From the NCBI GenBank assembly GCA_015143295.1, contig CM026555.1, positions 124,001 through 188,000 on the forward strand: a stretch of 64,000 bases of DNA, in the 5' to 3' direction. The DNA is from Tetracentron sinense. Taxonomy: Eukaryota; Streptophyta; Magnoliopsida; Trochodendrales; Trochodendraceae. Of this stretch, positions 5,284 through 62,648 are shown in pieces. A model generated the notes under the pieces. That model had not been told where the DNA came from. It saw only the letters and a list, made by a program, of their open reading frames with translations, and made no database searches. The stretch's first letter is position 1. Every line of letters begins with the position of its first letter. Both the position numbers and the translations under genes were made by a program.

Positions 5284-5704
5284 CATGCCTAGTTGCCGTT
5301 CATAGTCCGTCGCAACTAGTACCCTATATGCGGAATGACATGCCTAGTTTTCGTTCATAGTCCGTCGCAACTAGTACCTTATATGCGGAATGACATGCCT
5401 AGTTGCCATTCATAGTCCGTCGCAACTAGTACCTTATATGCAGAATGACATGCCTAGTTGCCGTTCACAGCCCGTCACAACTAGCATCCATGCAGAATGT
5501 GTATGACTAATTGCCGTTCATAGCCCGTCGCAACTAGCATCCATGCGGAATGATATGCCTAGTTGCCGTTCACAGCCCGTCGCAACTAGCATCCATGCAG
5601 AATGTGTATGACTAATTGCCGTTCATAGCCCGTCGCAACTAGCATCCATGCGGAATGATATGCCTAGTTTCCGTTCATAGTCCGTCGCAACTAGCATCCA
5701 TGCG
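5284..5704. repeat. LTR tandem array, eight units of about 52-55 bp
   Basis: Units begin (C/T)ATG(C/A)CTA(G/A)TT and contain CCGTCGCAACTAG. The first three units are the 55-bp type with a TATATGC segment; the later ones alternate between two shorter types. The partner LTR has seven units (13004-13369). The array matches no coding or CRISPR pattern. Confidence 0.9.
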
Positions 5705-5815
5705 TGTCATGTCATGCCATGAGTGTCATGAAATGCTATGCTATGCGTGTCATGCGATGCTATGCCATGCGTCTAATGCGATGCCATGCCATGCGTGTAA
5801 TGCGATGGGATGGGG
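5705..5815. repeat. CATG-rich low-complexity tract in LTR
   Basis: Dense irregular repeats of GTCATG, CCATGCG and TGCTATGC follow the tandem array. The partner LTR has the same tract at 13370-13483. Its CATG content suggests slippage or local expansion. No coding potential was recognised. Confidence 0.8.
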
Positions 5816-6740
5816 ACCCTTCCCTATGCAATGCATGATCATGTTGTCCTTGACAAAAGTGGAGTGAAACATATCGTAGGATATGCCCCACCTCTACATC
5901 TCGTCCTTAAAAACATCGGTAAATCACGTCGTTTCATGCCGTGCTCGTGTAGTCGTGTATACACTTGCAATGGAAATTAAATATGACATTTTGGGGAATT
6001 CACAATACATTGCACATCACCATATATACAAGTAATAAATTAAACAATTTAGGGAAAGTGCGAAAACACACTACCATAACCCTAGCAATTTCCATGAATG
6101 TTTAAGCATGCAATTTCTTTATTTATTATTCATTTCATTCATCTTGGCATTTCATCAAACATGGTGTGTTCATTATTGATTTACCCTACAACATGCTTTT
6201 CTAGATGGGTTTTACTCAAATCATGCATGTATGTTCATTATTGGAACAATGCCCTCCCCATTTTAATCATCACAACACAACCATTGGCATCCAATCGCCC
6301 ATTCCATCTCCATTCACCATTCACAACCATCCATCTCATAGTACATGTGTAAATAAAGGAAAATAAAGAGAAATAAAGGGAAAAGAGGAACTATAACTAG
6401 GAGGGTAGCAAGAAGTACCGACCTTGATCAAGTGAGGAAGAAATACCCTTCCAAAAACGACCGTGAGTTGCTGCCCTAGCTTGAGGAGATGCTCCTCACG
6501 AGCTTGTGCCTTGATCTTGAAGAAAAATGGGCTTGAGTTGAGTGTGGGTTCACAAACCCCTTGATTTCTCTCCAAAATGGAAACCCTAGGTTTAGGAATC
6601 GCCCTCTCCTCTCTTCTTATCTCCCAATCTCTTTAAGTGTCGAAATGAAGCCCTAAAGGCTCGGGTTAAACTCTTAAGGTAAGAGTGAACCGACCAAAAG
6701 ACCATAATACCCTTACTGAAATTTCTGCAAAAACGCGAGT

Positions 6741-6924
6741 ACCGAGCGATCCGTATTAATGACCGATCGATCGGTTGCCTACCGATCGATCGGTTTCATA
6801 ACCAAGCGATCGGTTAAAATTTCACTCTCTGGAAAATTTCCCCATACAAAAATCTTGACCAGTCGATAGCCTCCGAGCGATCGGTTTTGGACCGATCGAT
6901 CGCTCCATGGACCGAGCGATCGGT
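6741..6924 (-). promoter_or_regulatory. Palindrome module of Gypsy LTR
   Basis: Repeated 14-mers of type ACCGATCGATCGGT and ACCGAGCGATCGGT, perfect or near-perfect palindromes, are spaced through the segment. The 47-nt spacer at 6825-6871 matches the sirevirus LTR spacer (51889-51935) in the same sense orientation with three mismatches. Its position within the LTR fits a U3 regulatory region, but no convincing TATA box follows it in this family. A regulatory role is inferred. Confidence 0.6.
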
Positions 6925-7136
6925 GGTCTGCAGGTCCAAACTGTTTTGGCCATAACTTTTGACTCGTTCGTCCGATTTTGACGATTCAACTTGCGTTGGG
7001 TTCGTACTTCGAAAACAAACATTTCTGACGTTTTGGAATTTCTAATTTCTTCTTTATTTATTAATTATACCTCTTTAAAGGCAAAATGGCAACGAAAGTG
7101 TCATGCATTAAATGTGAAAAAGTTCGGGGCTCTACA

Positions 7137-7148
7137 TCCTCCCCCCTT
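7137..7148 (-). other. Polypurine tract
   Basis: On the minus strand, AAGGGGGGAGGA abuts the 3' LTR start (TGTAGAGC). This is the plus-strand priming site of the element. The same tract sits at 21577-21588 next to the middle LTR of the recombinant element. Confidence 0.9.
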
Positions 7149-7236
7149 ACAAAAATTTCGTCCTCGAAATTTAGACGCTACTTGCATTACAAACCAAAAT
7201 GAAAATTACAAGTCATATACAAACTTATGCAAAAAC

Positions 7237-10200
7237 TCATTCAAATTGTTCTGGGTACTTCGCTTTTATTTCGGCTTCACGCTCCCATGTAGCTTCTTCC
7301 CGAGCATGGTGTTGCAATTGCACAAGAACCAAAGGGATTGTCTTGTTGTGAAGCACTTGATCTCTTCGATCCAAAATTTGAACCGGCTTTTCAATCAAGG
7401 TGAGGTCCTCTCGAATCTCCAACGGTTCCAAGTCTATGACATACGAAGGATCCGCAATGTACTTCTGAAACATAGACACATGGAAAACATTGTGAACTGC
7501 GGTCATGTGAGGTGGAAGGGCAACCCTGTAGGCAACCTCACCCACTCGCGTGGTGATCTCAAACGGGCCAACATATCGAGGACTAAGCTTGCCTCTTTTG
7601 CTGAATCTCATAATCCCTTTGCTAGGAGATACTTTCACAAAGACTCGATCCCCAACTTGAAATTCCAAGTCCCTACGGCGCGTGTCCGCATAACTTTTCT
7701 GGCAATCTTGAGCGGCTTTCAATCAATCCCGGATGATCTTAACTGTGTTTGCAATTTTCTCAACCAACTCCGGACCAAGTACTTTCCTTTCTCCTACCTC
7801 ATCCCAATAGAGAGGAGACCTACAACTTCGCCCATACAAGGCCTCAAATGGTGCCATTTGGATACTCGTCTGATAGCTGTTATTATAGGCGAATTCAACC
7901 AAAGGCAAGTGCTCTTCCCAACTGCCTCTGAAATCCAACATACAAGCCCGAAGCATGTCTTCAATGACTTGGTTCACTCTCTCGGTTTGTCCATCCGTCT
8001 GTGGATGAAAAGCGGTGCTGAAATCAAGTCGGGAACCCATAGCCTCTTGGAAACTTTTCCAAAATCTTGACGTGAATCTTGGATCCCGATCCGACACAAT
8101 ACTAACGGGCACTCCGTGCAACCTCACCACTTCCTTGATGTACAAAGCGGCTAACTGACTAGAGTTGAAAGTAGTTCGATAGGGTAAGAAATGTGCGGAC
8201 TTTGTCAGACGATCCACTACAATCCAAATCGCATCTGAGCCCCTTGCCGTTTTTGGCAAGCCAACTATGAAATCCAAGGATATGTTCTCCCACTCGGGAA
8301 TAGGAAGAGAATGCAATAAACCGGGGGGTCGCATGTGTTCTGCTTTCACCTGTTGGCACACTAAGCACCGTGCCACATATTCTGCAACATCCCTCTTCAT
8401 ATTCCGCCACCAAAAGTGACTCTTGAGGTTCTGGTACATCTTTGTACCCCCTGGATGCACAGTGTACTTTGCCCGGTGGGCTTCATCCATAATCTCCCTC
8501 CGAAGATCTGCATTGGCTGGGACACACAGCCTTCCCTTGAATGTGATAGCACCTTGGCTAGTGAGAGAGAAGTCCTCACTACCCTTAGCAACTTCCTTGT
8601 CCAGATAAGCCAACAATTCAGCATCCGTGGCTTGGTATTCTTGGATCAAATCTATAATGTATGGCCGACCCGTGACATTTGCTAAGATAGGACTACAGAC
8701 AGAGTCATTCACACTAATGTCCAGATTTGCCAAGTCTTCAAGTAGCTTCCATTCCTGCACTAACATGCATGCTAATAACCCCGGAGGTCTTCTACTCAAA
8801 GCATCAGCCACTACATTTGCTTTACCCAGGTGGTATTGAATGGTACAATCATAGTCTTTCAAAAATTCCATCCAACGCCGTTGCCTTAGATTCAGCTCCT
8901 TTTAGGAAAAGAGATACTTAAAACTCTTGTGATCGGTAAACACATAGAACTCCACCCCATAAAGGTAATGACGCCAAATCTTAAGTGCAAACACGACTGC
9001 CGCAAGCTCCAAGTCGTGCGTGGGATAATTCTTCTCACGCTCCTTCAATTGCCTTGATGCATAGGCAATGACTTTCTTGTGCTGCATGAGTACACACCCA
9101 AGTCCAACGTGTGAGGCATCACTATACACCTCATACTCATAAGGTCCAGATGGCACAGTAAGGACAGGGGCTGTAGTAAGCCTCTTCTTCAGTTCTGTGA
9201 AACTGATCTCGCACTTATCACTCCATACAAACTTGGCGTTCTTCCTTGTCAGGTAAGTGAGCGGTGCTGCAAGGCTGGCGAAACTCTATACGAATCTCCT
9301 GTAGTAGCCTGCCAGCCCAAGAAAACTGCGTATCTCTGTGACACTCTTGGGCCTTGCCCAACTCATAACAGCCTCTATCTTCTTTGGATCTACCGATATG
9401 CCTTCCGCGGAAACAACGTGGCCTAGAAATGCCACCTCTTCGAGCCAAAACTCACACTTGCTAAGTTTGGCATATAGCTTGTGCTCTCTTAGCATTTCCA
9501 AAGCAAGGCGTAGATTACGTGTGTGATCTTCCCGTGTCTGGGAATAGACCAAAATGTCATCAACAAATACAATCACGCACCTATCAAGATATGGCCGGAA
9601 CACCCGGTTCATCAAATCCATAAAGGCTGCCAGCGCGTTCGTGAGACCAAAAGGCATCACCAAGAACTCGTAGTGCCCATATCGAGTCCTGAAAGCAGTT
9701 TTGGGAACATCTTCCACCTCAATCTTCAACTGGTGATAACCCGATCGAAGATCTATCTTCCACTTTGTTCAATTGCCGGTAATCAAAGCACATCCGCATC
9801 GAGCCATCTTTCTTTTTAACAAACAACACCGGGGCACCCCACGGTGAGACACTTGGTCGAATGAAGCCAAGGCCTTGCAATTCCTCCAACTGGGTCTTCA
9901 ACTCCTTAAGTTCAACCGGGGCCATTCTATACGGAGCCCGAAAGATGGGAGCTGTGCCTGGTGCAAGCTCGATCACAAACTCAATCTCCCTGTCTGGAGA
10001 TAATCCTGGCAACTCCTCTGGAAATACATCCAGGAATTCACTCACGACCGGAATAGTCGAAGAGTCCTTTGCCTCGAGGTTCACTAAGCTCAATGCCGCA
10101 AAACGAGCGATATCTCTACTTTTTAACCCCCGAAAGTGAAATGGTTTTCCTTCTACCGGCTTGAAGAGTACCATATTCTCAAAGCAAGCTACATGCCCAT

Positions 10201-10482
10201 GATGTGCTGCTAACCAATCCATTCCCAATATAACATCAAAGTCTTGGAATCCCAGGACGATGGGATCAACCGCCAACTCGTGGCTTCCAACTTGGGCCAC
10301 ACTATTTCTATACACTTTATCTGCCAATACTGTTTTACCGAGAGGAGTCGAAATGGCTAACTCCGGTTTTAGCTGACTAGGCTCCACAGAAAAGCCTTCT
10401 GAAAAACTCGGCGAGACAAACGAATGAGTAGACCCGGTATCAATCAATACTCGAGCCAAATACTCATTGACTAGTAGGGTTC
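7237..10482 (-). pseudogene. pol: Chromovirus pol: protease, RT, RNase H, integrase, chromodomain
   Basis: Sense order: protease with active-site IDTGSTHSF near 10445; RT with [21 protein letters not shown] and [10 protein letters not shown] (about 9500-9800); RNase H with the [10 protein letters not shown] segment; integrase with the CLVCQQVK finger near 8350, LDFIVGLP, and [15 protein letters not shown]; then a chromodomain ending at 7237. Damage: a 74-bp deletion at about 9760, compared with the copy at 24170-24263, removes the RT segment around [11 protein letters not shown] and shifts frame. Stops lie at 9288-9286 (Glu to TAG), 8904-8902 (Gln to TAA) and 7725-7723 (Trp to TGA). The reading frame enters through the proposed acceptor at 10482. 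No enzyme is expected from this copy. Confidence 0.93.
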
Positions 10483-10624
10483 CTGAAATTTTAACTAGTT
10501 ACGTCAATTCAAGCATCAACAGTGTATACACATAGGTATATATATATAGCATACCAAGTACGTACACAAGGAATAAAACATAACATAACAATCACGAATA
10601 AAGAAAATAACTCCAAACGCGTAC
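10483..10624 (-). other. Putative intron between gag and protease (142 nt)
   Basis: The minus strand reads AAG|GTACGCG at the donor (10625|10624) and AAATTTCAG|GAACC at the acceptor (10483|10482). The interior is T/A-rich. Removing 142 nt moves gag (codon starting at 10625) into the protease frame, giving [11 protein letters not shown] across the join. Unspliced, gag ends inside it at 10511-10509. Equivalent intervals of 145 nt occur at 17456-17600 and 24976-25120 in two other copies, with the same length modulo three. Splicing itself is inferred. Confidence 0.72.
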
Positions 10625-11873
10625 CTTGCACCACATCATCAGATGCAAGTACATCACCCTCTGTCAAAGCAAATACATGCCCCTGGTTCGCCTGGCGAGA
10701 CTGAGGTGTAGACCGGGTAGTCTGAGATGACGCCTGATATGATCCTGCTGGGCGTGCTGGTGGCCTAATCCCCTGAGACTGGCCTGGTAAATGCCGGGTA
10801 GGGCAATCCCTGATCACGTGGCCCTGGCGACCACAGTGAAAACATCCACCTGATGCTCTTAGGCAATCCCCTGCCGGGTGCCTTCGGCCGCATGAAGTGC
10901 AGACCTCGTGTGTGCGGGTAGGAGGGGCCTGAGGTGGAGCGTATCTCACCACCTGAGGTGCAACTGGCCGTGGGGCCAGGAGAGCCTGAGGTCAAGGTGC
11001 CTGTGGCACGTACTGCCGTGGTGCTGGAGGCGCATAAGTCGGCCTCATCTGTGGTGCTGGCCATGTATACTGATAAGGGCCGGTACGAGCCCGCCTCTCT
11101 AGAGGTGCTGAACTACTGGATTGGCCTCTCGTTAATTCCCTCTTTTTGGACACCGCCTCAGAGTTGGTCTCAACCAACAAGGCTTTATCCACCACTTCAG
11201 CGTAAGTGGCGTGCCTAAAGACCGATACTTTCTCCATGATGACATCCTTGAGTCCTTGCTCAAACCTCCTCTCCTTCATTGCCTCGGTGGCAATCATATG
11301 TGTCGCGAAGCGTGATAGCTCCGAGAACTTGGCCTCATAAGCGGCCACAGACATCGAACCTTGCTCAAGGTTGATGAATTCTCTCTCTTTCTTTTTCCGA
11401 GCTCCAACCAGGAAATACTTCTTATAGAACGTATCCTTAAACTCCTCCCAAGTCCACGGTTGACCTTGCATAGTCAAGTCCCGTGTCCTCAATGCGGACA
11501 ACCACCAATGGTGGGCTTCACCTTCTAGCATGAAAACTACCCATGCTACTTTCTCTTCCTCTGTAGGAGAGAGCACCGCAAATATCTTCTCAACCTGGAG
11601 GACCCAAGCCTCCGCAGCAAGAGGGTCCACACTCGTATGGAAGGATGGAGGCCTTAATCTCCGGAATGCCTCAACTCCAGCTGTACGATGTACTGGAGCT
11701 CTAGGCGGTGGAGTAGGTGCTGCTGATGCCGGTATAGTTTGCAGAGCCGCCAGGATGGCGAGTGTCTCAGCAATAGAGCCTAAGACCTGAGAGAGGTCCG
11801 GCTGCTCATCCTCATCCCGTGAAGAAGAGGAAGCTCTAGTATGTGATCCACGACCCCGTGTGTTCCGTCTCAT
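10509..11873 (-). pseudogene. gag: Chromovirus gag with CCHC zinc knuckle
   Basis: The start ATG at 11873-11871 gives a basic N-terminus, MRRNTRGRGSHTRASSSSRD. The capsid region follows with AWVLQVEKIFAVL, HHWWLSALRTRDL and WTWEEFKDTFYKKYF, the retrotransposon gag domain. A Pro/Ala-rich linker leads to CTSCGRRHPAGDC and then the knuckle CFHCGRQGHVIRDC near 10840-10800. One in-frame TGA at 10994-10992 replaces an Arg codon (CGA in the related copy), consistent with CpG decay. Beyond the proposed splice donor the unspliced frame adds a hydrophobic tail and stops at 10509. Apart from the one stop it looks nearly intact. Confidence 0.93.
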
Positions 11874-12218
11874 GACTAAAGTCCTGAGAATAATAACACC
11901 ACATGAGTCTAACTTGAAACCACAGTTTATTTCAATGCCATTTCACAATAATTCAATTTGTATTAATTGTATAATACTAATATACATCACATCAAGTCAT
12001 CAGAGTATTCATCACATTATACTTATACTTTAGTGTTCTAGCGTACCTAGGACCCGTACTTGGTTAAAGCAACCATTTTAGACTAAGACTAAAGTTTAGT
12101 CTTACACTTGGAACTAGACTCGCTCCCGACTTACTTCCTTCCTAACTTATTTCCTAACATATGCTCTTGTCAAGCCGTGGTATAAGATTCTAAGTGACCC
12201 TAGAGACCTAAAGCCTAA

Positions 12219-12230
12219 ACTCTGATACCA
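12219..12230 (-). other. Primer-binding site, initiator Met-tRNA type
   Basis: The minus strand carries TGGTATCAGAGT four bases inside the 5' LTR end, matching the usual plant iMet-tRNA primer sequence except for the last base. The related copies at 19189-19200 and 26709-26720 have TGGTATCAGAGC. Confidence 0.9.
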
Positions 12231-12536
12231 CTTCTGTCGCGACCCAAAACCCACCCTAGGAGTTAGAGTGAATCGTGGACGACTAAATCATGACTTACAT
12301 GACTTGCTTGACAAACCACCTGCAAAACACCCACAGAGCATATACAATAGATGATAACAGCGGAATCATAACTATAAGACACAGCGGATGTCTAACAAAC
12401 CTCTAAGTATATACACATGGTCCAAGTTTTAATACAAAGAAATCAAAACAAAGAAAGTACGGACATGCCCGCCAAAATACATGGATATAATCACTCATGC
12501 TCACCCACAGCTAATCCACTCAGAATCTAACACCAC

Positions 12537-12656
12537 CTACTGATAACCCTCTATGGGAGGTTCCTCCAAAGGCTCCTCGACGTACTCCTCCTCCACCCAT
12601 AGACCAGGAGCACAAACATCAAATGGAGCAGCAGCTCCCTCAGAACCTGCCGACAT
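12537..12656 (-). CDS. LTR micro-ORF, conserved 39-residue acidic peptide (copy 2)
   Basis: Forty codons from MSAG to a stop after EGYQ, with PFDVCAP and LWVEEEYVEEP. It lies in the 5' LTR of the complete chromovirus. The 3' LTR copy (4819-4936) has lost two single bases and is out of frame. Confidence 0.4.
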   Translation of the reverse strand: MSAGSEGAAAPFDVCAPGLWVEEEYVEEPLEEPPIEGYQ

Positions 12657-13003
12657 AAGAAGTACGACTGAGCATGGAATACTCAGCGGGCACTAAATAC
12701 TAACCAACAGTTATAGCAAGAGATAGCAATGCATACCCAGGAAACAATATAGATATATATGAATCAGGAACAGTTAATATCATACAAAGAAATAAGGAAA
12801 TTCATAATCATGCTTGCAGTTCATGAAAATCCGATAAAATCCTTGAAAAACACCATGCACTTGACTTGACTTAAAATACCCTTCGCGTAATTGGGAACTT
12901 ATTTACCGTGTCATGCTTGTCATGCTTGTATCATGCGTGCCATGTCATGCTATGCGTGTCATGCATGTATCATGCTTGCTTATTCGGAACTTAAACATGT
13001 TCA

Positions 13004-13369
13004 CATGCCTAGTTGCCGTTCATAGTCCGTCGCAACTAGTACCCTATATGCGGAATGACATGCCTAGTTGTCGTTCATAGTCCGTCGCAACTAGTACCTT
13101 ATATGCGGAATGACATGCCTAGTTGCCGTTCACAGCCCGTCGCAACTAGCATCCATGCAGAATGTGTATGACTAATTGCCGTTCATAGCCCGTCGCAACT
13201 AGCATCCATGCGGAATGATATGCCTAGTTGCCGTTCACAGCCCGTCGCAACTAGCATCCATGCAGAATGTGTATGACTAATTGCCGTTCATAGCCCGTCG
13301 CAACTAGCATCCATGCAGAATGATATGCCTAGTTGCCGTTCATAGTCCGTCTTAACTAGCATCCATGCG
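13004..13369. repeat. LTR tandem array, seven units
   Basis: Same unit family as 5284-5704 but lacking one 55-bp-type unit. The final unit carries CGTCTTAACTAG in place of CGTCGCAACTAG. Confidence 0.88.
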
Positions 13370-14406
13370 TGTCATGTCATGCCATGAGTGTCATGAAATG
13401 CTATGCTATGCGTGTCATGCGATGCTATGCCATGCGTGTAATGCGATGCCATGCCATGCGTGTAATGCAATGGGATGGGAGACCCTTCCTTATGCAATGC
13501 ATGATCATCTTGTCCTTGACAAAAGTGGAGTGAAACATATCGTAGGATATGCCCCACCTCTACATCTCTTCCTTGAAAACATCGGTAAATCACGTCGTTT
13601 CATGCCGTGCTCGTGTAGTCGTGTACACACTTGCAATGGAAATTAAATATGACATTTTGGGGAATTCACAATACATTGCACATCACCATATATACAAGTA
13701 ATAAATTAAAAAATTTAGGGAAAGCGCGAAAACACACTACCATAACCCTAGCAATTTCCATGAATGTTTAAGTATGCAATTTCTTTATTTATTATTCATT
13801 TCATTCATCTTGGCATTTCATCAAACATGGTGTGTTCATTATTGATTTACCCTACAACATGCTTTCCTAGATGGGTTTTACTCAAATCATGCATGTATGT
13901 TCATTATTGGAACAATGCCCTCCCCATTTTAATCATCACAACACAACCATTGGCATCCAATCGCCCATTCCATCTCCATTCACCATTCACAACCATACAT
14001 CTCATAGCACATGTGTAAATAAAGGAAAATAAAGAGAAATAAAGGGAAAAGAGGAACTATAACTAGGAGGGTAGCAAGAAGTACCGACCTTGATCAAGTG
14101 AGGAAGAAATCCCCTTCCAAAAATGACCGTGAGTTGCTGCCCTAGCTTGAGGAGATGCTCCTCACGAGCTTGTGCCTTGATCTTGAAGAAAAATGGGCTT
14201 GAGTTGAGTGTGGGTTCACAAACCCCTTGTTTTCTCTCCAAAATGGAAACCCTAGGTTTAGGAATCGCCCTCTCCTCTCTTCTTATCTCCCAATATCTCT
14301 AAGTGTCAAAATGAAGCCCTAAAGGCTCGGATTAAACTCTTAAGGTAAGAGTGAACCGACCAAAAGACCATAATACCCTTACTGAAATTTCTGCAAAAAC
14401 GCGAGT

Positions 14407-14590
14407 ACCGAGCGATCGGTGTTAATGACCGATCGATCGGTTGCCTACCGATCGATCGGTTTCATAACCGAGCGATCGGTTAAAATTTCACTCTCTTGAA
14501 AATTTCCCCATACAAAAATCTTGACCAGTCGATAGCCTCCAAGCGATCGGTTTTGGACTGATCGATCGCTCCATGGACCGAGCGATCGGT
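14407..14590 (-). promoter_or_regulatory. Palindrome module, 5' LTR copy
   Basis: Same arrangement as 6741-6924: four palindromic 14-mers, the spacer including the complement of CTATCGACTGG, then three more palindromes. As the 5' LTR it would be the copy acting on transcription of the element. Confidence 0.55.
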
Positions 14591-14918
14591 GCTCTGCAGG
14601 TCCAAACTGTTTTGGCCATAACTTTTGACTCGTTCATCCGATTTTGACGATTCAACTTGCGTTGGGTTCGTACTTCGAAAACGAACATTTCAGACATTTT
14701 GGAATTCCCAATTTCTTCATTATTTATTAATTATACCTCTTTAAAGGCAAAATGGCAACGAAAGTGTCATGCATTAAATGTGAAAAAGTCCGGGGCTCTA
14801 CACAAATACCCTAAGTATGGTGAATGAGACCCCCAAGACTCGGGCAAGCCTTAATAGGGAAGGGTGTAACGTCCGAATGAAGAAAAAGCCCTTAATAAAA
14901 TTTTACAAAATGCAGCAT

Positions 14919-15142
14919 ACCGATTGATCGGTGATTAATACCGAGCGATCGGTTGCCTACCGAGCGACCGGTGTTTTGACCAGACGATCGGTCAAAAAAA
15001 TGCTCTCTGGAATTTTTCCCCCTACAAAAAAGTGCACCAGTCGATAGCTACCAATTGATCGGTTGTGGACCGATTGATCTCTACAATGGACCGAGCGATT
15101 GGTTATATACCAATCGATCTCTCTCATGACCGAGTGATCGGT
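14919..15142 (-). promoter_or_regulatory. Palindrome module in the older solo LTR
   Basis: Variants such as ACCGATTGATCGGT and ACCGAGCGATCGGT, with the same spacer, lie in the 14808-15407 half of the solo LTR. It has diverged from the younger copies, but the order of repeats and spacer is kept. Confidence 0.5.
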
Positions 15143-21137: not shown

Positions 21138-21322
21138 ACCGAGCGATCAGTGGTTATGACTGATCGATCGGTTGCCTTCCGAGCGATCGGTGTTCTTGAC
21201 CGGGCGATCGGTCAAAAACATGCTCTCTGGAATTTTTCCCCATACAAGAAAGTGCACTAGTCGATAGCCTCCGATCGATCGGTTTTGGACCGATCGATCG
21301 CTGAATGGACCGAGTGATCGGT
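21138..21322 (-). promoter_or_regulatory. Palindrome module, middle LTR
   Basis: ACCGAGCGATCGGT and ACCGATCGATCGGT variants with the GCTATCGACT spacer (complement near 21260). The right LTR of this element lost most of its module in the deletion near 28708. Confidence 0.5.
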
Positions 21323-24975: not shown

Positions 24976-25120
24976 CTGAAATATTAGCTAACTAAGTCAA
25001 TCCATGCATCAACAGCGTATACATATAGATACATAGATATATAACATGCCATACAGGTACACAATCGAATAATACATAACAAAAATTTTAAGGATAATTA
25101 AATAGACTACAACTACATAC
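24976..25120 (-). other. Putative gag-protease intron (145 nt), second copy
   Basis: Donor AAA|GTATGT and acceptor ATTTCAG|GAACC on the minus strand. The exon-end phase matches the 142-nt copy: the last exon base is the first base of a codon. The unspliced frame meets TAG within three codons of the donor. Confidence 0.65.
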
Positions 25121-30035: not shown

Positions 30036-30250
30036 ACCGCTCGCTAGGGATCGATCGGTTCACAACCGATCACTCGGTCATTTTTAGCGATCGATCGGTC
30101 CACAACCGATCGATCAGTAGCTATCGACTGGTTAACTTTTTTGGATGGGAAAATTTTCCAAAGAGCATGTTTTTGACCAAGAGCTCGGTCAAGAACACCG
30201 ATCGCTCGGTAGGTGACCGATCGCTCGGTATTTACCACCGATCAATCGGT
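30036..30250 (+). promoter_or_regulatory. Palindrome module of solo LTR
   Basis: GATCGATCGGT, ACCGATCGCTCGGT and ACCGATCAATCGGT repeats flank a spacer with CTATCGACTGG and GGATGGGAAAATTTTCC. Same sense orientation and order as in the other LTRs, though more diverged. Confidence 0.52.
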
Positions 30251-31661: not shown

Positions 31662-31781
31662 ATGTCGGCAGGTGATAGCGGAGCAGCTGCTCCTTTCGAT
31701 ATCTGTGCTCCGAGCCCTTGGGTGGAGGAGGAATATGTTGAGGAACCTGTGGAGGAACCTCCGGTAGAGGGGTACTACTAG
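31662..31781 (+). CDS. LTR micro-ORF, conserved 39-residue acidic peptide (copy 6)
   Basis: Clearest plus-strand example: ATG at 31662, MSAGDSGAAAPFDICAP, then PWVEEEYVEEP and EGYY-stop. Upstream an imperfect palindrome, CTGAGTATTCCATGCTCA (31632-31649), precedes TATGTCGGCAG|G, which also resembles a splice acceptor. No known family was recognised. It could be a translated micro-peptide or the start of an exon within the LTR. Confidence 0.42.
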   Translation: MSAGDSGAAAPFDICAPSPWVEEEYVEEPVEEPPVEGYY

Positions 31782-32603
31782 GTGGTGGTGGATTCTGAGT
31801 GAGTGAGCTGTGAGTGAGCTTGAGAGATTATATGTATGTGTTTTGGCGGGCATGTCCGCACCTTCTTTGGGTTTCTTTTTGTACAAAACTTGGATCATAT
31901 ATATATACTTAGAGGTTTTTGGTTAGACTTCCGCTGTACGTTGTAGTTTATGTTTCCGCTATTATTGTCCTCTATTGTATATGCTCCAGGTATATTGTAA
32001 GTTGGTTGTCAAGCAAGTCATGTGGGTCATGTCAAGTCGTCCAAGATTCACTCTAACTCTTAGGGTGGGTTTCGGGTCGCAACATTACAAGTCGCATGAG
32101 TACATGAGCATGACATGGGTTTTGTATGGACATGGGCATGGTACAAATTCTGGAAATCATTTCATGAGCATCATACAAGAACTCTATACATGGACTCTGA
32201 ATTACAAGGACAAGTATTGAATCATGGACTCTGACTTACAAGGAGCATTGGGAAACCGTGTGTGCTCTCCATGGATACGGTTGCAAGTCTTGGATAATGC
32301 ATCTTGGATTTTGATCACAAGGAGCTCTGAGAGCATAAGCTCACATCGATGATCTCCATGGATACCATATAATGCATCACGGTACAAGTGAAGTGTCACA
32401 CAAGTACACGAGTCAAGGTTTTGTTATGATATGCCTACATGTCCTTCCACACTCTGATTATACACATATTATATGAGACTACTATTGATTATATAACTGT
32501 TGCATTAACTGTTATCGATTATGAACATGTGGTACTATTATGGTTTGTTAGACTAGATATCCGTTGAGTTATTCAATACTCAGTCGACCTGTCATTGTCG
32601 TCA

Positions 32604-51523: not shown

Positions 51524-51835
51524 TGTAAATCCCTAAATAGGTGTTGGCAAATTCCGTGATCATTAGATAGGTCAGTTGAGTCGAGTCGTCGAGTCATGTT
51601 TAACTTGTCAGAAGAGAAGAGCTAAAGCTTAAAGAAGATTGAAGCAAGTGAAGGAAAAAGCTTATACTCCGGATCTAGACAGGTAATGGACTTAGAGACC
51701 CTACCTAGGTTGGATTTGACTTAGATAACCCTAAAAATACCTAGGAGGATAGTTTTAAGCCTACCAAAGTTATTTGATCTTAGTTGAATCAAATAAAAAT
51801 AAAATGAAAATGGTTTTGGCAAAAATTCTGTCTCA

Positions 51836-52020
51836 ACTGATCGCTCGGTATTGCGACCGATCGATCGGTGGCCTACCGAGCGATCGGTGGCTATCGACTG
51901 GACCAAATTTTTGTATGGGGAAATTTTCCAGAGAGATGATTTATAACCGAGCGATCGGTCATTAGAACCGATCGATCCGTTTTGAACCGAGCGATCGGTA
52001 GTGAGCACCGATCGATCGGT
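51836..52020 (+). promoter_or_regulatory. Palindrome module upstream of the sirevirus TATA box
   Basis: Seven copies of ACCGAGCGATCGGT/ACCGATCGATCGGT-type 14-mers surround the spacer 51889-51935. The last palindrome ends 46 bases before the TATA box. As I recall, palindromic repeat motifs near the core promoter are known in sirevirus LTRs; the match to the Gypsy module is the unexpected part. Confidence 0.65.
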
Positions 52021-52065
52021 CCCCGTAAAAAGAATTTTTCTTTTTCTGGATTCTTTTTTAAACCC

Positions 52066-52073
52066 TATATAAA
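52066..52073 (+). promoter_or_regulatory. TATA box of the 5' LTR
   Basis: TATATAAA within CCCTATATAAACAAA. The 3' LTR copy is at 61963-61970. Transcription should start roughly 30 bases downstream. Confidence 0.8.
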
Positions 52074-52750
52074 CAAATTTTGGGAGACCTAATTCGTGTC
52101 TTTGATATTTTTGAAAGAGTAGAGGTCTGAGAAACTCTTCTAGGGTTTTTCTTATTGCTTTTATTAGATCTTTGTTGATCCCTCTTTCTTAGATCCTAGA
52201 GAATGCAAGTATAGATCTAAATCTTTGATCTTGCATTGTGTGATCTCAGATCTGTATGAGATCCCTCTAGGGTTTGAAATTTACTAAATTGATTCACAAC
52301 CCTACACCTTGTGTGTGTGTCTGGTGTTTGATCCGGAGCCTTCGTGGAAGGAGATCGATCGTGTGTGATCGTGGATTTGAAGTCGCTTGAAAAGATTTGG
52401 TCGGTGTGGAACCGAAGCTGCTAAGGCGGAGATCGAACCTGCTGGTTCGTGGAAATCAAGAGTAAGAGTCTATACCTAGGAACGTCGTTTCTGTTTTGGT
52501 AAGGTCTTGTCTTGTACTTGATATCTTTTCATAGTGAAGTTTATTGCTGGACAAAGTCCCGTGGTTTTTTCCCGTTAGGGTTTTCCACGTAAAAATCTTC
52601 TGTGTTTGATTTGTGTGGATTGTCTGATTGTATTATTCATTGATTTCTAAACATATTAATTGAAAACTTAAAATTGGTTAGAAATTATTAGATAGACCTA
52701 TTCACCCCCCCTCTAGGTCTTAGAGATCATTGATCTGGATAAATTTCAAT

Positions 52751-52762: not shown

Positions 52763-52815
52763 TTGTTCACTGATAAGGCTAATCCCTTAAGTGTGATCCT
52801 GTATTATCCGTGATC

Positions 52816-54483
52816 ATGAGTACTCTAAGAGAAGGAGGATCCGTCTCTCGTCCCCCACTTTTTGATGGAAATAATTATGCATACTGGAAAGCTAGAATGA
52901 GAGCCTTTCTCAAATCTATTGACGAGAGAATTTGGATGTCTATACAGAATGGGTGGACTACGCCCATAAAAACTGTAGGTGATTTGACTGTCGTCAAATA
53001 TTCTGATGAATGGACCAGAGAAGAGCTTGATTCAAGTGGATGGAACACTAAAGGTCTCAATGCTATCTTTACTGCAGTCACTGCTGAGGAATTCAGACGA
53101 ATTTCTTCATGTGAAACAGCAAAGGAGGCTTGGGACATTCTTGAAATTACCCATGAGGGTACTACCACTGTTAAAATCTCAAAACTCCAAATGTTAACCA
53201 CCAAATTTGAACATTTAAACATGGAAGACAATGACACTTTTGATGAATTCTATGCAAAACTTAGTGACATTGTCAATGCTAGTTTCAATTTAGATGAGAA
53301 AATATCTGAGTCCAAAATAGTTAGAAAAGTCCTTAGATCTCTCCCAGAGAGATTTCAACCCAAAGTCACTGCAATCGAAGAGAGTAAAAATGTTGACTCT
53401 CTGAAGATTGAGGAATTGGTTGGATCACTCCAAACCTATGAACTCAATCTACGTCCATCCAAGAAGAATAAATCTTTAGCCTTGAAAGCCATCAAGGAAA
53501 CTTTGGATGAGGATGACAGTGATGGAGATATGAATGAGGAAGAAATGGCTCTTTTCGTTAAAAAATTTTGAAAATGTTTTAGAACGAAAAAGAGATTTAA
53601 TCCCAAACAGGGAGGAAAATCTTTTGAGAAGTCAAAGTCTAAGCCCTGGGAAAACAAGAAAAATTCCAAGAGTGGCGATAAGAAATCCCAAGGTGTTCAA
53701 TGTTATGAATGCCATGGCTTCGGTCATATTTCACCTAACTGTCCTAACAAGAAGAAGAGTAAGGGCAAGGTGATGAATGCCTGTTGGGATGACAGTGATT
53801 CCGAGAATGAAGAATCGGAAAGTTCCTCTTCAAGTGAAGATACTGGAAATCATACGGCTTTCACTGTTTCCCTTTCTGGGATTCTTGAGACTACCTCTAC
53901 GGTTGATGAAAAGGATAGAAGTGATGAGAGTATTCATACTGAGTCTAGTGATGACTTACAGAAGAGTCAAACTGACTCTGAAAGTGATGAAGATTTGAAA
54001 ACAACTTATGATAAGTTGTATGCTGAAAGTTTGAAATTGACTAAAAAAAAAATCTCTTTGAGCAAAAAACTCAAACTCATTCAAAATGAAAGAGATATCT
54101 GTAAACTAGTAGCAGAAGAGAAGAGTGCACTAGTTAGTCAGTTGGAAAATGAAAAAGAAGCATTTGTTATAAAAGTTCAATGTCTTTTAGAAGAGAATGT
54201 CTCATTGACTAATGTGGTCAGAAAATTAGAAGTTGAAAGAGACACTTCCATGAAAGAAATTGAAGAGTTAAGAACTCTGCAAATGGAGCTGGAAACTTTT
54301 AAAGTCTCTCTTGTTGATAAGGTGAAATTTCTTGAAAAAGAACACCAAATTACCCTTAAAGACAAGACTGACTTGATTCAGAAGGTCTATACTCTTGAAA
54401 AAGAAGTAAGAATGTTTGGTAACACTAGCTGCCTAGATGAATTAGTTAGAAAGTATGGATCAAATTCGAGTAGATCTGGATAG
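52816..54483 (+). pseudogene. gag: Sirevirus gag, first part
   Basis: ATG at 52816 (MSTLREGGSVSRPPLFDG). The N-terminal gag domain has YWKARMRAFLKS, a Trp-rich early part, ISSCETAKEAWDILEITHEG and VRKVLRSLPERFQPKVTAIE. One TGA at 53569-53571 interrupts the frame; the same frame then continues into the knuckle CYECHGFGHISPNC (about 53701-53742), an acidic Ser-rich region and a long coiled coil (54000-54430). It ends at 54483 because of a one-base shift near 54480. Otherwise well preserved. Confidence 0.93.
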
Positions 54484-54524
54484 GACATGTTGACACACCA
54501 GCTGGTCCTTTAGCTGTTGGTACA

Positions 54525-55703
54525 ATGGCTAGTGCAGTGTTTGAGCCAATACATTCTGAACCTAAAGAAAATTTACCTTCTACATCAAGTACTAAGGCTT
54601 ATACAAATTTTGTAAAGCCTAGAAATACAGCTCCTAGAGTGAATGCTTTAAGGAATCAAATTCCTGTTAGAAGAAATCCTCCTCCTCTACCAAGATTCAT
54701 ACCCACATGTCACTTTTGTGGTGTGAGAGGTCACATTCGACCTAATTGTAATGCATTTAGGAGAGCTCCCCGAAATGGTTCATGGAACCAAAATCAAAGT
54801 CAAGGGACTCTTCAAAGGCAGATTCAGGTTCTAGCTGAAAAGTCTAGAATGTTGAGCGATGATGTTAATAGAATTGCTCAAATCTCTAGGACAAGAACTG
54901 GTCAATTTATTCCAAATGATTATTCAAGAGGAAATAATTTGACTTATCAAAAAACTAGAACTGAACAAAACAGAAAAAGGTCAAGGAGGACAAAAAGGAA
55001 AAAGGTCTCTACTACACAGATTAATGATCAAAGATCTAAACAAAGTTTAAAGACTGTGTATGTAAGAAAGGAAGACCTTAAGTGCTTTGTCATTCATACT
55101 GCCTTGAAAGCCCAAAACACAGAAATGTGGTACTTCGACAGTGGGTGTTCTCGGCATATGACAGGTAACAAGTCCTTATTTATTCAATTTGAGGACTGTC
55201 CTGATGGGACTGTTACTTTTGGTGATGGAAGCAAGTCTTTAGTCAAAGGAAAGGGTATCATCGATTCACCAGGCATACCTAAATTGAAAGATGCCTTGTT
55301 TGTTGAAGGACTGAAAGCTAATTTAATTAGCATAAGTCAACTATGTGATGATAATCATGCTGTGCACTTTACCCAAAATAAATGCTTAGTCATTAATGGT
55401 AAAGGTAAGTGTGTTCTAGAAGGATTGAGAACCACTGACAATTGCTACGGCTTAACTCCCAGTCCTATTCCCTCAAATGTCTGTTATAAGACTAAAATTG
55501 AGGAGGTTGATTTGTGGCACCGAAGACTAGGTCACATGAACTTCAAAGACCTATGTAAAATCTCTAAGCAAGAGCTTGTGAGAGGTATTCCCAAACTAGG
55601 AAAGCCTTCTACTGCTGTGTGTGGGCCATGCCAAATTGGTAAACAAATTAGAACCCCACATAAGAAGACTTCAAGTATTGCACTTCATATCCACTGGAAT
55701 TAA
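54525..55703 (+). pseudogene. pol: Sirevirus gag end, protease and pre-integrase region
   Basis: The frame is open from about 54465; the first ATG is at 54525. A second knuckle, CHFCGVRGHIRPNC, is followed by a basic segment, protease WYFDSGCSRHMTG (55129 on, Asp-Ser-Gly active site), VKGKGIIDSPGIPKL, and the pre-integrase motif LWHRRLGHMNFKDL with CGPCQIGKQ. A shift near 55685 ends the frame at IHWN-stop. Confidence 0.93.
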
Positions 55704-55708
55704 TTCAT

Positions 55709-57580
55709 ATGGACCTTATGAGTCCTACAAGAACTGAAAGTCTAGGTGGAAAGCGATACATCCTAGTTATGGTTGATGATTTCTCAAGAATGTCATGGGT
55801 GGCATTTATAAGAGAGAAATCCGATGCTTTTGACAATTTCAAAAGTATTTGCCTGAAAGTTCAAAATGAGAAAAGATGCCCAATCACTCGAATTCGAAGT
55901 GATCATGGAAAGGAGTTTGAAAACTCTAAGTACAACGACTTTTGTGATGAGTCGGGTATCAAACATGAATTTTCTGCTCCTATTACACCTCAGCAGAATG
56001 GTGTAGTAGAGAGGAAGAACAGGGTTCTCCAAGAGATGGCTAGAGTTATGCTTCATAACAACAATCTAGCTTCTCATTTCTGGGCTGAGGCAGTTAACAC
56101 TGCTTGCTATATAGTTAATAGAGTTTTTGTAAGACCTGGAACAAGGAAAACCCCATATGAGTTATGGAATAACAAGAAACCTAGTGTCAAGTACTTTCGA
56201 GAATTCGGAAGTAAATGCTATATCCTTAAGGATAGAGAGCAACTAGGCAAATTTGAATCCCGGAGTGATGAAGGGATATTTCTTGGATATTCCACCAACA
56301 GTAGAGCTTATCGAGTGTATAACTTGAGAACCTCTATAATTATGGAGTCCATAAATGTAGTTGTGGATGACTCCGGTGTTGAAAATGTGCAACGTGAGGA
56401 TGATGAAAGTGCTGAAAATGAAAATGTTGAAATTATTTCAACTCCACCTATTGATAAGTAAACATCTCCATCAAAACATACACATCCTAGGGTCATGAGT
56501 CCTCACACCCCCATTGATATAATTGGTGATGTTGAAAGTGGAGTGAGAACGAGGAAACAAATTGAAAATGAAGTTAGCTACATTTGCTATACTTCATCTT
56601 TTGAACCCAAGAATGTAGCTGAAGCTCTTGCAGATGATAATTGGATAAATGCAATGCAAGAAGAGTTACTTCAGTTTACTAGGAATGATGTTTGGTATTT
56701 AGTACCTAGGCCTAACAATACAAATGTGATAGGAACCAAATGGATTTTCAAGAACAAATCTGATGAAAAAGGTACTATCATAAGAAATAAGGCTAGGTTA
56801 GTTGCACAAGGATACACCCAAATTGAAGGTATTGACTTCGATGAAACTTTTGCTCCTGTAGCCAGGCTAGAATCAATAAGAATTCTTCTAGCTGTGGCTT
56901 GTCATATGAAATTCAAACTTTTTCAAATGGATGTTAAGAGTGCCTTTCTGAATGGCATTCTACATGAAGAAGTCTATGTGGAACAACCAAACGGGTTTGA
57001 AGATCCACATCACCTTGATCAAGTTTATCGACTAAAAAGGGCCCTCTATGGTTTAAAGCAAGCTCCAAGAGCTTGGTATGAGAGACTGACTACTTATCTC
57101 TTGGAAAACGGATTTTCGAGAGGGGGAGTAGACAGAACCCTTTTCATAAAGAATGTGAAAGGTGATATTGTCATCGCCCAGATATATGTTGATGACATAG
57201 TATTTGGTTCCACATTAGACTTACATGCTCATTCATTTGCTGAACAAATGAAAAATGAATTTGAAATGAGCATGGTTGGTGAGCTAAGTTTCTTCCTTGG
57301 TCTTCAGATCAAGCAATTGGATTCTGGGATCTCAGTATCTCAAATCAAATATGCAAAAAATCTAGTGAAGAAATTTGGAATGAGTTCTGCTAAGCATGCT
57401 AGGACTCCTATGAGTACTACTATAAAGCTTAGTAAAGATACTTCACGGAAGGATGTCGATCAGACTAATTATAGAAGCATGATTGGTAGTTTGCTCTACC
57501 TAACTGCTACTAGACCCGACATAGCCTTTAGTGTTGGAGCATGTGCCCGTTATCAAGCAAATCCCAAAGAGTCTCACTAA
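55709..57580 (+). pseudogene. pol: Sirevirus integrase and reverse transcriptase
   Basis: Integrase core: HMDLMSPTRTESLGGKRYIL, IRSDHGKEFEN and QQNGVVERKNRVLQEMARVM give the D-D-E residues. A TAA at 56459-56461 breaks the same frame before RT. RT has [46 protein letters not shown] and the catalytic [14 protein letters not shown] at 57578-57580 follows KESH. Both stops look like single-base changes; the frame is otherwise unbroken. Confidence 0.94.
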
Positions 57581-58129
57581 GTTGCTGTCAAGCGTATCAT
57601 TCGCTATGTGAGTGGAACTATGTCCTTAGGCCTCTGGTATTCTTTCGATACCAATGTCATTGTCGTGGGGTATTCCGATGCTGATTGGGCTGGAAATACT
57701 GATGATAGGAAGAGCACCTCCGGCGGGTGTTTCTATATTGGAAACTGCTTAGTTGCTTGGCTTAGCAAAAAGCAGAATTCCATTTCCTTGTCTACAGCCG
57801 AGGCTGAGTATATAGCAGCTAGTAGTTGTTGCACCCAACTTCTGTGGATGAAACAGATGTTGAAGGATTATGGGATTGATCAAAGCACTATGATTGTGTA
57901 TTGTGATAACACAAGTGCAATCAATATCTCCAAAAATCCTGTACAACACTCTCGCACAAAGCATATAGACATTAGGCATCACTTCATCCGTGATCTTGTT
58001 GAGCAAAAAGTTGTGTCTATTGAGTATGTCCAAACAGAGAATCAATATGCGGACATTCTCACAAAACCTTTAGATTCCCTTAGGTTTGAACTCCTTAGGA
58101 AATCCATCGGTTTGTGCGGAGTTGAGTAA
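57581..58129 (+). pseudogene. pol: Sirevirus RNase H
   Basis: Same frame as the RT after the stop at 57578. GYSDADWAGNTDDRKSTSGG, SLSTAEAEYIAAS and RTKHIDIRHHFIRDLV carry the RNase H residues. The natural end is CGVE-stop at 58129. Confidence 0.93.
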
Positions 58130-59313: not shown

Positions 59314-59371
59314 ACCGATCGCTCGGTGCTAAAGACCGATCTATCGGTCTTTCGTGAACAGAGTTATAAAA
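59314..59371 (+). promoter_or_regulatory. Internal palindrome pair and TATA box before the extra ORF
   Basis: ACCGATCGCTCGGT (59314-59327) and ACCGATCTATCGGT (59335-59348) precede TATAAAA (59365-59371). The extra ORF starts 200 bases after it. The arrangement copies the LTR layout at smaller scale, which suggests an internal promoter. Confidence 0.5.
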
Positions 59372-59570
59372 CCCTCATTTCTATTTTTTTTGTTCACTTG
59401 TTCTCCGACCTCCAGAGCGATCCCTCGGTTCCTACTCCTCCAAATCCTCCATACGGTCATTCCTTTCTATTCTAAAGGTCTCCCAAGCATCTAAAAGGTA
59501 AGATTTGTGCATTTTCTTCGATTTAGATTGATTTTCTCGTCTAGGGCATCGTTTTCTTGCATTTTCTTCC

Positions 59571-60814
59571 ATGGCTTTCGTTTTGTCGTTAATCCTTTTT
59601 GCCTATCTCATGTCTGGCGTTCCCAAACGTTGGAGGTTGGTCCTCAACAACCAAGAGGATCCTCCTCAAGATGAGGAAAACCTAGAGCCATTTACTTTCA
59701 CTCCAATAGGGCATGGTATTTCCATTGGGGACAGGCCAACTCGTAGAATGATTGATTCTACTGCTGAGAATCGCCAAAAGGCTTTGGCTGATAAAACTGG
59801 TAAAAACAAGGGTAAAGCCTCATCTTCTCATGCCAGTCGATCATCTTCTTTCATTAATCCTTCGGCTGCTCAACTTTACCGTGAATATTTTAGCAAGAAG
59901 GCTATCATGGTTGAGCGAGGAATTCAAATTTCAGACTTTGATGATTATTACCTTCCTAAGCTCATTGCCGATCGTCAATGGGAAGGTATTCTCCATCTAT
60001 CATGTCCAGCTCCTATTCAGTTGGTTCAGGAATTTATTCCAATTTTTCTAATATCAACTTGAAAACTTGGTCTTTCAAAACTAGAGCTTTAGAAAAATCT
60101 GTGGTAATAAATCCTGATTTGATTGCTGCTATTCTTGGTTGTCCTCGAGTTCCAAATGCTTATTATCCTTATAGATATAAGACTGATGAGGATAAAGAAA
60201 CCATGGAACAAGTTGTTACCTTTCTAAGTGGCACTCCTTCAGTTTGGGTTGGTTCTCTCATTGAAGTGTCTAAACTCACTAGGGATGCAAGACTTGTAAA
60301 CCTAGTCATGAGTGCCAATATCTACCCAAAGGTTCATACTGCGGACCTTAGGGAAGAAAGAGCTCGTTTTCTATTCAGTCTTCTTCGTGGGCATGATATT
60401 GATCTTGCAGCACATTTTATCGATTTGATGATCCAAGCTCATCGATCTGACACTGTAGTTGGAGCCCTTCCTTTTGGATCTCTTATCACTAAACTTCTTG
60501 GTTTACAAGGGGTATTTGCACCTCCTGGTGCTCCTACTCGAGTACCGAAGGGTCCAATCAATAAAAAGACCCTATCTCAGAGTTTCTCACATGCCTCGGT
60601 TCGAGATACAGAGGAGGGAGCAGAAGTTGGTGCTGGGTCATCTCGTCCTCCTCCGACCACTATGGATGATCTTGGGAGGATGATGCGAGAGATGCAGATG
60701 GATCTCCGGACTCATATTTCATCATACGAGGAGTTTACTACAGAGGTTTGTGGTAGACTTGGATCTCTCGATGTGGCCGTGCTAGGAGTACAGAGAGATG
60801 TTCGAGATTTTTGA
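59571..60814 (+). pseudogene. Extra 3' ORF of the sirevirus (plant transposon protein domain, env-like position)
   Basis: ATG at 59571 begins with a hydrophobic stretch, FVLSLILFAYLMSGV, possibly a signal anchor. A polar region and a Ser/Lys stretch follow, then DFDDYYLPKLIADRQWEGIL. A one-base shift between about 60020 and 60050 moves the frame; the second part runs to 60814. It contains INPDLIAAILGCPRVPNAYY, MSANIYPKVH, ARFLFSLLRGHDIDLAAHFI and FGSLITKLLGLQGVF, the layout of the 'putative plant transposon protein' domain as I recall it. The C-terminus looks like a coiled coil (MRE/MQMDLRTHISSYEEF). Env-like genes occupy this place in some sireviruses, but an envelope function is not shown. 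Product broken by the frameshift. Confidence 0.72.
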
Positions 60815-61420: not shown

Positions 61421-62648
61421 TGTAAATACCTAAATAGGTGTTGGCAAATTCCGTGATCATTAGATAGGTCAGTTGAGTCGAGTCGTCGAGTCATGTTTAA
61501 CTTGTCAGAAGAGAAGAGCTAAAGCTTAAAGAAGATTGAAGAAAGTGAAGGAAAAAGCTTATACTCCGGATCTAGACAGGTAATGGACTTAGAGACCCTA
61601 CCTAGGTTGGATTTGACTTAGATAACCCTAAAAATACCTAGGAGGATAGTTTTAAGCCTACCAAAGTTATTTGATCTTAGTTGAATCAAATAAAAATAAA
61701 ATGAAAATGGTTTTGGCAAAAATTCTGTCTCAACCAATCGCTCGGTATTGCGACCGATCGATCGGTGGCCTACCGAGCGATCGGTGGCTATCGACTGGAC
61801 CAAATTTTTGTATGGGGAAATTTTCCAGAGAGATGATTTATAACTGAGCGATCGGTCATTAGAACCGATCGATCCGTTTTGAACCGAGCGATCGGTAGTG
61901 AGCACCGATCGATCGGTCCCCGTAAAAAGAATTTTTCTTTTTCTGGATTCTTTTTTAAACCCTATATAAACAACTTTTGGGAGACCTAATTCGTGTCTTT
62001 GATATTTTTGAAAGAGTAGAGGTCTGAGAAACTCTTCTAGGGTTTTTCTTATTGCTTTTATTAGATCTTTGTTGATCCCTCCTCTTTCTTAGATCCTAGA
62101 GAATGCAAGTATAGATCTAAATCTTTGATCTTGCATTGTGTGATCTCAGACCTGTATGAGATCCCTCTAGGGTTTGAAATTTACTAAATTGATTCACAAC
62201 CCTACACCTTGTGTGTGTGTCCGGTGTTTGATCCGGAGCCTTCGTGGAAGGAGATCGATCGTGTGTGATCGTGGATTTGAAGTCGCTTGAAAAGATTTGG
62301 TCGGTGTGGAACTGAAGCTGCTAAGGCGGAGATCGAACCTACTGGTTCGTGGAAATAAAGAGTAAGAGTCTATACCTAGGAACGTTGTTTCTGTTTTGGT
62401 AAGGTCTTGTCTTGTACTTGATATCTTTTCATAGTGAAGTTTATTGCTGGACAAGGTCCCGTGGTTTTTTCCCGTTAGGGTTTTCCACGTAAAAATCTTC
62501 TGTGTTTGATTTGTGTGGATTGTCTGATTGTATTATTCATTGATTTCTAAACATATTAATTGAAAAATTAAAATTGGTTAGAAATTATTAGATAGACCTA
62601 TTTACCCCCCCTCTAGGTCTTAGAGATCATTGATCTGGATAAATTTCA
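61421..62648 (+). repeat. Sirevirus 3' LTR
   Basis: 1,228 bp, TGTAAATACC to AAATTTCA. Palindrome module 61733-61917, TATA box 61963-61970. Three bases longer than the 5' LTR because of a CTC duplication near 62080. Confidence 0.96.

Follow-up and report, generated by a model that had tools for sequence, protein, structure and literature searches.

Two components of the arrangement described here are already known from published work, namely the palindrome boxes of sireviruses and one LTR motif shared by Gypsy and Copia elements. In the parts of the literature consulted, the sirevirus boxes (RM boxes) are described as specific to sireviruses in comparison with classic Copia elements, and are placed in the LTR and before ENV (Bousios et al., 2010, PMC2829016). 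The shared motif, QuinCent, is common to the LTRs of the Gypsy family RLG_Quinta and the Copia family RLC_Gisela in einkorn, and its authors propose that it was acquired, for example by gene conversion (PMC11302176). In the Del (Tekay) lineage of Gypsy elements, the 5' part of the LTR carries a CpG-rich island of variable length (PMC4029996).

In this study, a module of about 185 nt was found to be common to the LTR of a sirevirus (Ty1/Copia) and to those of Ty3/Gypsy chromoviruses (Tekay-type), in the same sense in both. The window, i.e., the whole stretch of 64,000 nucleotides of Tetracentron sinense analyzed, is part of a 1.16-Gb genome. The Vitis RM box CGGTCGACCG (PMC2829016) resembles the GGTCGACC class of palindromes occurring in this genome. 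Unlike the RM boxes as presented in the consulted parts of that account, which describe no such spacer, the palindromes of the window recur in Gypsy LTRs with the same class, the same spacing and a non-palindromic spacer. QuinCent, as far as the sections of its report used here go, is a centromeric element associated with nucleosome placement, whereas the present case involves Tekay-type and sirevirus elements, a palindrome array and an older divergence. Like the Del islands, the modules are CpG-rich: the observed/expected CpG ratio ranges from 1.53 to 1.88 inside the four modules measured (three of them Tekay; 1.87 in the sirevirus) vs 0.46–0.78 in the remainder of the LTRs. For eudicot Del (cluster A), and unlike what is seen here, CpG islands are reported to be absent in the parts of the Del account consulted, which describe neither palindromes nor sharing with Copia elements (PMC4029996). 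No report of a module shared by sireviruses and Tekay elements was found in a literature search conducted mostly at abstract level, which makes this a weak absence.

The Copia element has the following features:

51524..52748, + strand: 5' LTR, from the blast pair and the junctions, with the CA end at 52747-52748 and the 5-bp flank AATGA
51836..52020, + strand: module in the 5' LTR, with palindrome units at 51836, 51856, 51875, 51946, 51967, 51986 and 52007
51889..51935, + strand: 47-nt central spacer of the module, with its 27-nt core at 51909-51935
52066..52073, + strand: TATA box TATATAAA, at LTR position 543, 45 bp downstream of the module
52783..58126, + strand: gag-pol ORFs (Retrotran_gag_2, rve, RVT_2)
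59314..59429, + strand: three extra palindromes of the LTR class, without the spacer, around TATAAAA at 59365 in the linker that precedes the env-position ORF
59960..60811, + strand: env-position ORF (PF20167)
61421..62648, + strand: 3' LTR, preceded by AGGGGGAG-AT and followed by AATGA
61733..61917, + strand: module in the 3' LTR

The 5-bp target duplication AATGA matches on both sides of the element, and 15 substitutions separate the two LTRs over 1226 aligned sites. Copia-type gag, integrase and RVT_2 place the element in Copia, and it carries the junction signatures of sireviruses given in the parts of Bousios et al. (2010, PMC2829016) used here. The PPT AGGGGGAG stops 2 bp short of the 3' LTR (61411), a further PPT lying upstream (61079); the LTR/PBS junction CA/ATTGG TATCAGAGC is present with one change in the window copy (TATCAAAGC) and in its exact form at two loci (L002 and L010); and the LTR end has near it a poly-C integrase signal (CACCCCCCCTCTAGG), recognized from the published description of a C-rich signal. 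Palindromes ending in CGG and CCG occur seven times in the LTR before the TATA box and three times before the env-position ORF. The placement of the latter three matches that of the RM boxes in the consulted parts of PMC2829016, and their position around TATAAAA suggests a second sirevirus promoter under the same control. Among the 120 RT homologues listed out of 7988 matches, the rows naming an organism were eudicot plants, and the list gave no lineage label.

The Gypsy chromoviruses form a cluster at about 4.5–32 kb of the window, mostly on the - strand, in which the following features were identified:

4517..14802, - strand: Gypsy chromovirus (Tekay-type) element A, with LTRs at 4517-7137 and 12235-14802 and the 5-bp flank ATTTG on each side
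6741..6924, - strand: module in the 3' LTR of element A, at LTR position 214-397
14407..14590, - strand: module in the 5' LTR of element A
14919..15142, - strand: module with extra palindrome units, in LTR B (Tekay-type, truncated)
21138..21322, - strand: module in Tekay-type LTR C, with the same unit spacing as in the sirevirus
30036..30250, + strand: module with extra palindrome units, in the Tekay-type LTR at 29823-32084

The pol domains RVT_1, RNase H, integrase and SH3_Tf2-1 were found in these elements, together with a chromodomain whose matches are weak and below the Pfam cut-off (E 0.02 and 0.0096 for the window, 2e-4 for L024). The long LTRs begin with TGTAGARCCCCG and end in GGGTCGCGACA, where GGG is one position further in than in the U5 attachment site of type A (-8 to -10); the label "Tekay-type" is based on the domains and these LTR ends. 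The 5' LTR of element C starts at about 28737 and appears to have lost most of its U3 module, the last units being all that is left (28667-28709). Short tandem repeats of about 55 and 80 bp were also observed by self-comparison inside the Tekay LTRs (5283-5704 and 16970-17282).

Seven palindromes of 14 bp, with the form ACCGANCGNTCGGT, make up the module, and the central spacer lies between units 3 and 4, separating the first three from the last four. These units start at module positions 1, 21, 40, 111, 132, 151 and 172 in the sirevirus, and the same seven are found in Tekay LTR C, with identical intervals of 20, 19, 71, 21, 19 and 21. In blastn comparisons, 51836-51999 matched 6762-6924 on the opposite strand with 80% identity, and the module matched 14407-14590, 14919-15099 and 21137-21324 on the opposite strand and 30060-30250 on the same strand with 75–79% identity. 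A previous sequence-only reading of the window had named seven stretches carrying palindromes of one kind in a single sense orientation. All seven do hold the palindromes, and the sense is the same everywhere, since the Copia genes are on the + strand, the Gypsy genes at 7237-11942 and 21710-25976 are on the - strand, and the LTR carrying 30036-30250 is on the + strand. The kind of palindrome is also the same, but the number of units is not constant, extra ones being present at 14919-15142 and 30036-30250. The three mismatches counted by that reading between the 47-nt spacer and the complement of 6825-6871 were found exactly: the best Gypsy copy, in the 3' LTR of element A, is identical at 44/47 positions, and the other Gypsy spacers of the window show 4 to about 9 mismatches over 46–47 nt. 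Between the sirevirus and Tekay copies, the palindromes agree at 83–90 of 98 positions and the spacers at 42–49 of 57, while the linkers between the palindromes agree at 7–9 of 30, which is the random level. Among the Tekay copies themselves (four copies vs LTR C, row L024a being left out because an insertion puts it out of register), the linkers agree at 20–26 of 30. In Tekay LTRs A, C and P, no TATA box resembling TATATAAA was detected within a short distance downstream of the module.

Linkers at the random level are what would be expected if the two superfamilies had independently built arrays for the same palindrome-binding factor, with the spacing set by the DNA helix. Palindrome arrays with other cores occur in several LTR types of this genome (L014, L026, L042 and L043), and nearly identical boxes have been reported in distant sireviruses (Bousios et al., 2010, PMC2829016, in the parts consulted), both of which are in line with an independent origin. 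The spacer argues against it: with the five Gypsy modules it gave scores of 52–79, the 44/47 match with element A scoring 79, vs a maximum of 22 among the 1262 other segments of the window. The whole modules scored 124–168 vs shuffle maxima of 27–32 (500 dinucleotide shuffles per Gypsy copy), and there is further agreement in the layout of seven units and in the central interval of 71 nt. The sequence-only reading had argued that the convergence of short motifs would not suffice, and these scores bear it out; on the spacer match, convergence alone was rejected, and we regard independent origin as improbable. The likeness is confined to the module. When the remainder of the sirevirus LTR was compared with those of the Tekay LTRs, five of the six comparisons were unremarkable (the observed score was reached by 41, 34, 1, 76, 67 and 11 of 100 shuffles each), the upstream part of LTR C being the borderline case (1/100). 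This is the pattern that a cross-superfamily exchange of the QuinCent kind would leave: a segment that is homologous across the superfamilies, set in LTRs that are otherwise unlike.

The module is not restricted to the window. The sirevirus version was present at the 40 best-scored LTR places in the genome, with 98–100% identity over the module, on 15 contigs, and that of element A at 40 places with 89–100% identity, some of them partial. The 10 sirevirus LTRs examined in full, eight of which (all but the window pair) were chosen by their module, all carry it and are 95.5–98.5% identical to the 5' LTR of the window. A chimeric assembly, or the recent insertion of a piece of LTR into a single copy, would not give a module repeated in both LTRs of an element with matching target duplications and at this copy number in both superfamilies. 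This explanation was ruled out and its probability is negligible; the sequence-only reading had named chimerism, along with the absence of the module from other copies of one family, as fatal to its claim, and the module is multicopy in both superfamilies. Diversity across these 10 sirevirus LTRs amounts to 0.0084 within the module vs 0.020–0.025 elsewhere in the LTR, despite the high CpG ratio. This low diversity agrees with constraint, though 38 of the 1041 segments of 185 nt along the LTR, counted with overlap, show equally few variable sites. A profile search was also performed on a random sample of 200 kb, made up of 20 10-kb stretches located at 20 Mb of C1–C20, in which seven strong modules were found, all seven in Tekay-type LTRs and none in a sirevirus, as well as two weak ones.

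The two weak modules of this sample (L024:1706 and L021:7814) have GGTCGACC palindromes, and their spacer cores show 3 and 6 mismatches in 27, respectively. The flanks of the former are weakly Tekay, and the latter is adjoined by a chromovirus-type integrase that is 55–75% identical to that of element A. The reversed-sequence control of the spacer-core search gave no match in the 200-kb sample. A core match at L028 (7/27 mismatches), which has no array around it, was put down to chance. Searches from the two weak modules (40 scored places each) yielded two groups, L024b/L033/L034 and L021/L036, in which the spacer core is present and is followed downstream by a TATA box; L033, L034 and L036 are assigned on the basis of the LTR sequence, without a protein check. 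The L033 array (about 1417-1807) mixes CGATCGATCG (ACCGATCGATCGGT) and GGTCGACC units and is possibly an intermediate between the palindrome classes. No such array was detected at the Tekay-type LTR starts L019:1258 and L024:2827, and those at L014 and L026:8628 carry other palindromes without a clear spacer. The L026 LTR, which starts near 8628 on the - strand, has TGCGATCGATCGCA palindromes, another class. The Tekay-type LTR of L014, which starts near 2329 on the - strand, has the core TCGTCGACGA, which is also found behind a sirevirus-like PPT in L042 and L043. Homology between L014 and the latter two is not claimed, since they have only a palindrome core of 10–15 nt in common; the TCGTCGACGA class is perhaps a second palindrome class crossing the superfamilies.

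Other sirevirus-type LTRs were sought with the pattern AAGGGGGAGATTGTTG, which occurs at 18 sites in the genome. Among the 12 sites examined, which the pattern alone does not prove to be all sireviruses, two (L040 and L049) have GGTCGACC arrays and a diverged spacer, mismatched at 5 and 7 of 27 positions, respectively, two (L042 and L043) have TCGTCGACGA arrays without the spacer, and the other eight have neither array nor spacer in the stretch examined. Searches by tblastn with the ORFs of the window sirevirus and Tekay elements gave no match in L038, L039, L041, L042 and L043. L040 shows weak collinear homology to the window sirevirus in the linker and LTR, spacer included; a sirevirus gag with 62–69% identity lies upstream of it, and the module copy before that gag (L044) is probably the 5' LTR of the same element. 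None of 2000 shuffles gave a core with as few as 5 mismatches, the shuffle minimum being 8. The classification of L049 as a sirevirus is based on a linker-like start and the PPT; its 7/27 match is in itself no better than the chance-like match of L028, and it is the array setting that supports it. The diverged spacer with GGTCGACC palindromes occurs in one other sirevirus-type LTR (L040) and probably in a second (L049).

When 59 nt around the spacer were compared, the window sirevirus was identical at 44–51 positions to nine Tekay rows of the CGATCG class, at 34–39 to five other Tekay-type rows, and at 30–33 to three other sirevirus-type rows, two of which are copies at one locus. The 13-nt segment GGCTATCGACTGG of the window sirevirus is identical in element A and less exact in the other CGATCG Tekay LTRs; a shortened form occurs in the Tekay-type group of L033 (11/1000 shuffles), and L040, L049 and the Tekay-type L036 are at the shuffle level (144/1000 in the case of L036). 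The window sirevirus and the Tekay copies also share the 20-nt gap before the core. In trees built without L026:2-108, which is cut off, the window sirevirus grouped with the CGATCG Tekay rows over 92 columns (86/81) and over 59 columns (66/86), where it stood next to element A (46/80). The best tree over 53 columns lacks this grouping; a tree constrained to it is 1.31 lower (p 0.315). A single sirevirus clade gives a tree that is higher by 0.11 log units. Such a clade was not rejected by the AU tests (p 0.526, 0.21 and 0.355, the last with 59 columns). In a 185-nt tree without the other sireviruses, the rooting of which cannot decide the direction of an exchange, the window sirevirus was placed next to, but not among, the 11 CGATCG Tekay rows sampled (96/95), so that none of the sampled Tekay copies is the donor. 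The sequence-only reading had proposed testing whether a module tree joins the superfamilies: such a tree was obtained in two of the three cases including other sireviruses and not with 53 columns, and the AU tests do not reject a single sirevirus clade. As for the exchange that it had put forward, homology beyond convergence is upheld, while an exchange after the two lineages had the module, or the direction of such an exchange, is not established, given the random linkers and the AU results.

The fact that the linkers are random across the superfamilies and alike within Tekay suggests that the modules separated long ago and have been held by constraint on the palindromes, the spacing and the spacer. 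With linkers at 7–9/30, recent wholesale copying of the LTR was ruled out. The spacer relatives in L040, more weakly in L049, and in two further Tekay-type groups make the module look old in both lineages. It might therefore have been ancient in both, owing to one very old exchange or to a common source, and vertically inherited since, the palindrome class having shifted in parallel under the same host protein. This alternative is a genuine possibility, though not one that we consider probable. The diverged spacers in the GGTCGACC arrays of L040 and probably L049 and of the two Tekay-type groups speak for it, as do the collinear homology of L040, the saturated linkers and the AU tests, which leave sirevirus monophyly standing, slightly the better with 53 columns. 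It accounts less well for a window sirevirus spacer that is closer to the CGATCG Tekay copies than to those of other sireviruses, and for what the window sirevirus has in common with Tekay, namely the unit spacing, the 13-nt segment and a gap of 20 nt ahead of the core; nor is the L049 match, which draws on array position, a strong point in its favor. The greater closeness of the window sirevirus to the CGATCG Tekay copies favors exchange, probably in the direction from Tekay to sirevirus. As judged from these comparisons, we hold an exchange to have a little more than an even chance, an ancient shared module being the main rival.

Taking the evidence together, we lean, with no great confidence, to the combined reading in which a promoter-proximal array, homologous modules and an old transfer from Tekay to sirevirus are all involved. 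The module is likely to be a protein-binding promoter array. Its palindromes would be the sites of a dimeric host DNA-binding protein, set 19–21 bp apart, i.e., at about two helical turns, and flanking the conserved spacer with a central interval of 71 bp; in the sirevirus the array sits 45 bp upstream of the TATA box, and it may act as an enhancer. The modules of the window sirevirus and of the CGATCG-class Tekay elements are homologous on this reading, and this sirevirus lineage would most likely have taken its present module, not recently, from a Tekay-type LTR. Template switching between RNAs packaged together may have brought about the transfer, or else gene conversion. In LTR elements, the genomic RNA has U3 at its 3' end, so that a switch of template in that region would reach both LTRs in one cycle; gene conversion would serve equally. 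Selection would since have kept the palindromes, the spacing and the spacer, while the linkers drifted.

A broader proposal, which we advance only tentatively, is that there is one pool of promoter modules used by both sireviruses and Tekay elements, and that modules have moved between the superfamilies more than once. The classes CGATCGATCG, GGTCGACC and perhaps TCGTCGACGA might then have spread across the superfamilies, both of which would track the same host palindrome-binding factor, and the regulatory phylogeny of the LTRs might be a network cutting across the protein phylogeny. Outside sources were also sought: 601 bases spanning the module had no match among plasmids, and the viral contigs held no exact match to the 23-nt core. 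In the contigs of prokaryote genomes, one match to the 20-nt core was found (L031:6699-6718, a goat omasum MAG), which extends to 23 nt exactly; since there are no palindromes in the 200 bases around it, it is probably due to chance.

The sharing of the module gives the impression of control DNA exchanged long ago and preserved by selection, rather than of coincidence. If this is true, two superfamilies whose replication proteins are separate have control DNA in common in their LTR promoters, which could link the bursts of both and could make LTR-based classification unreliable in this region. It would also qualify the report that palindrome boxes are specific to sireviruses, and would provide a defined sequence, of 185 bp, that could be used to look for the host factor driving two abundant lineages of plant retrotransposons.
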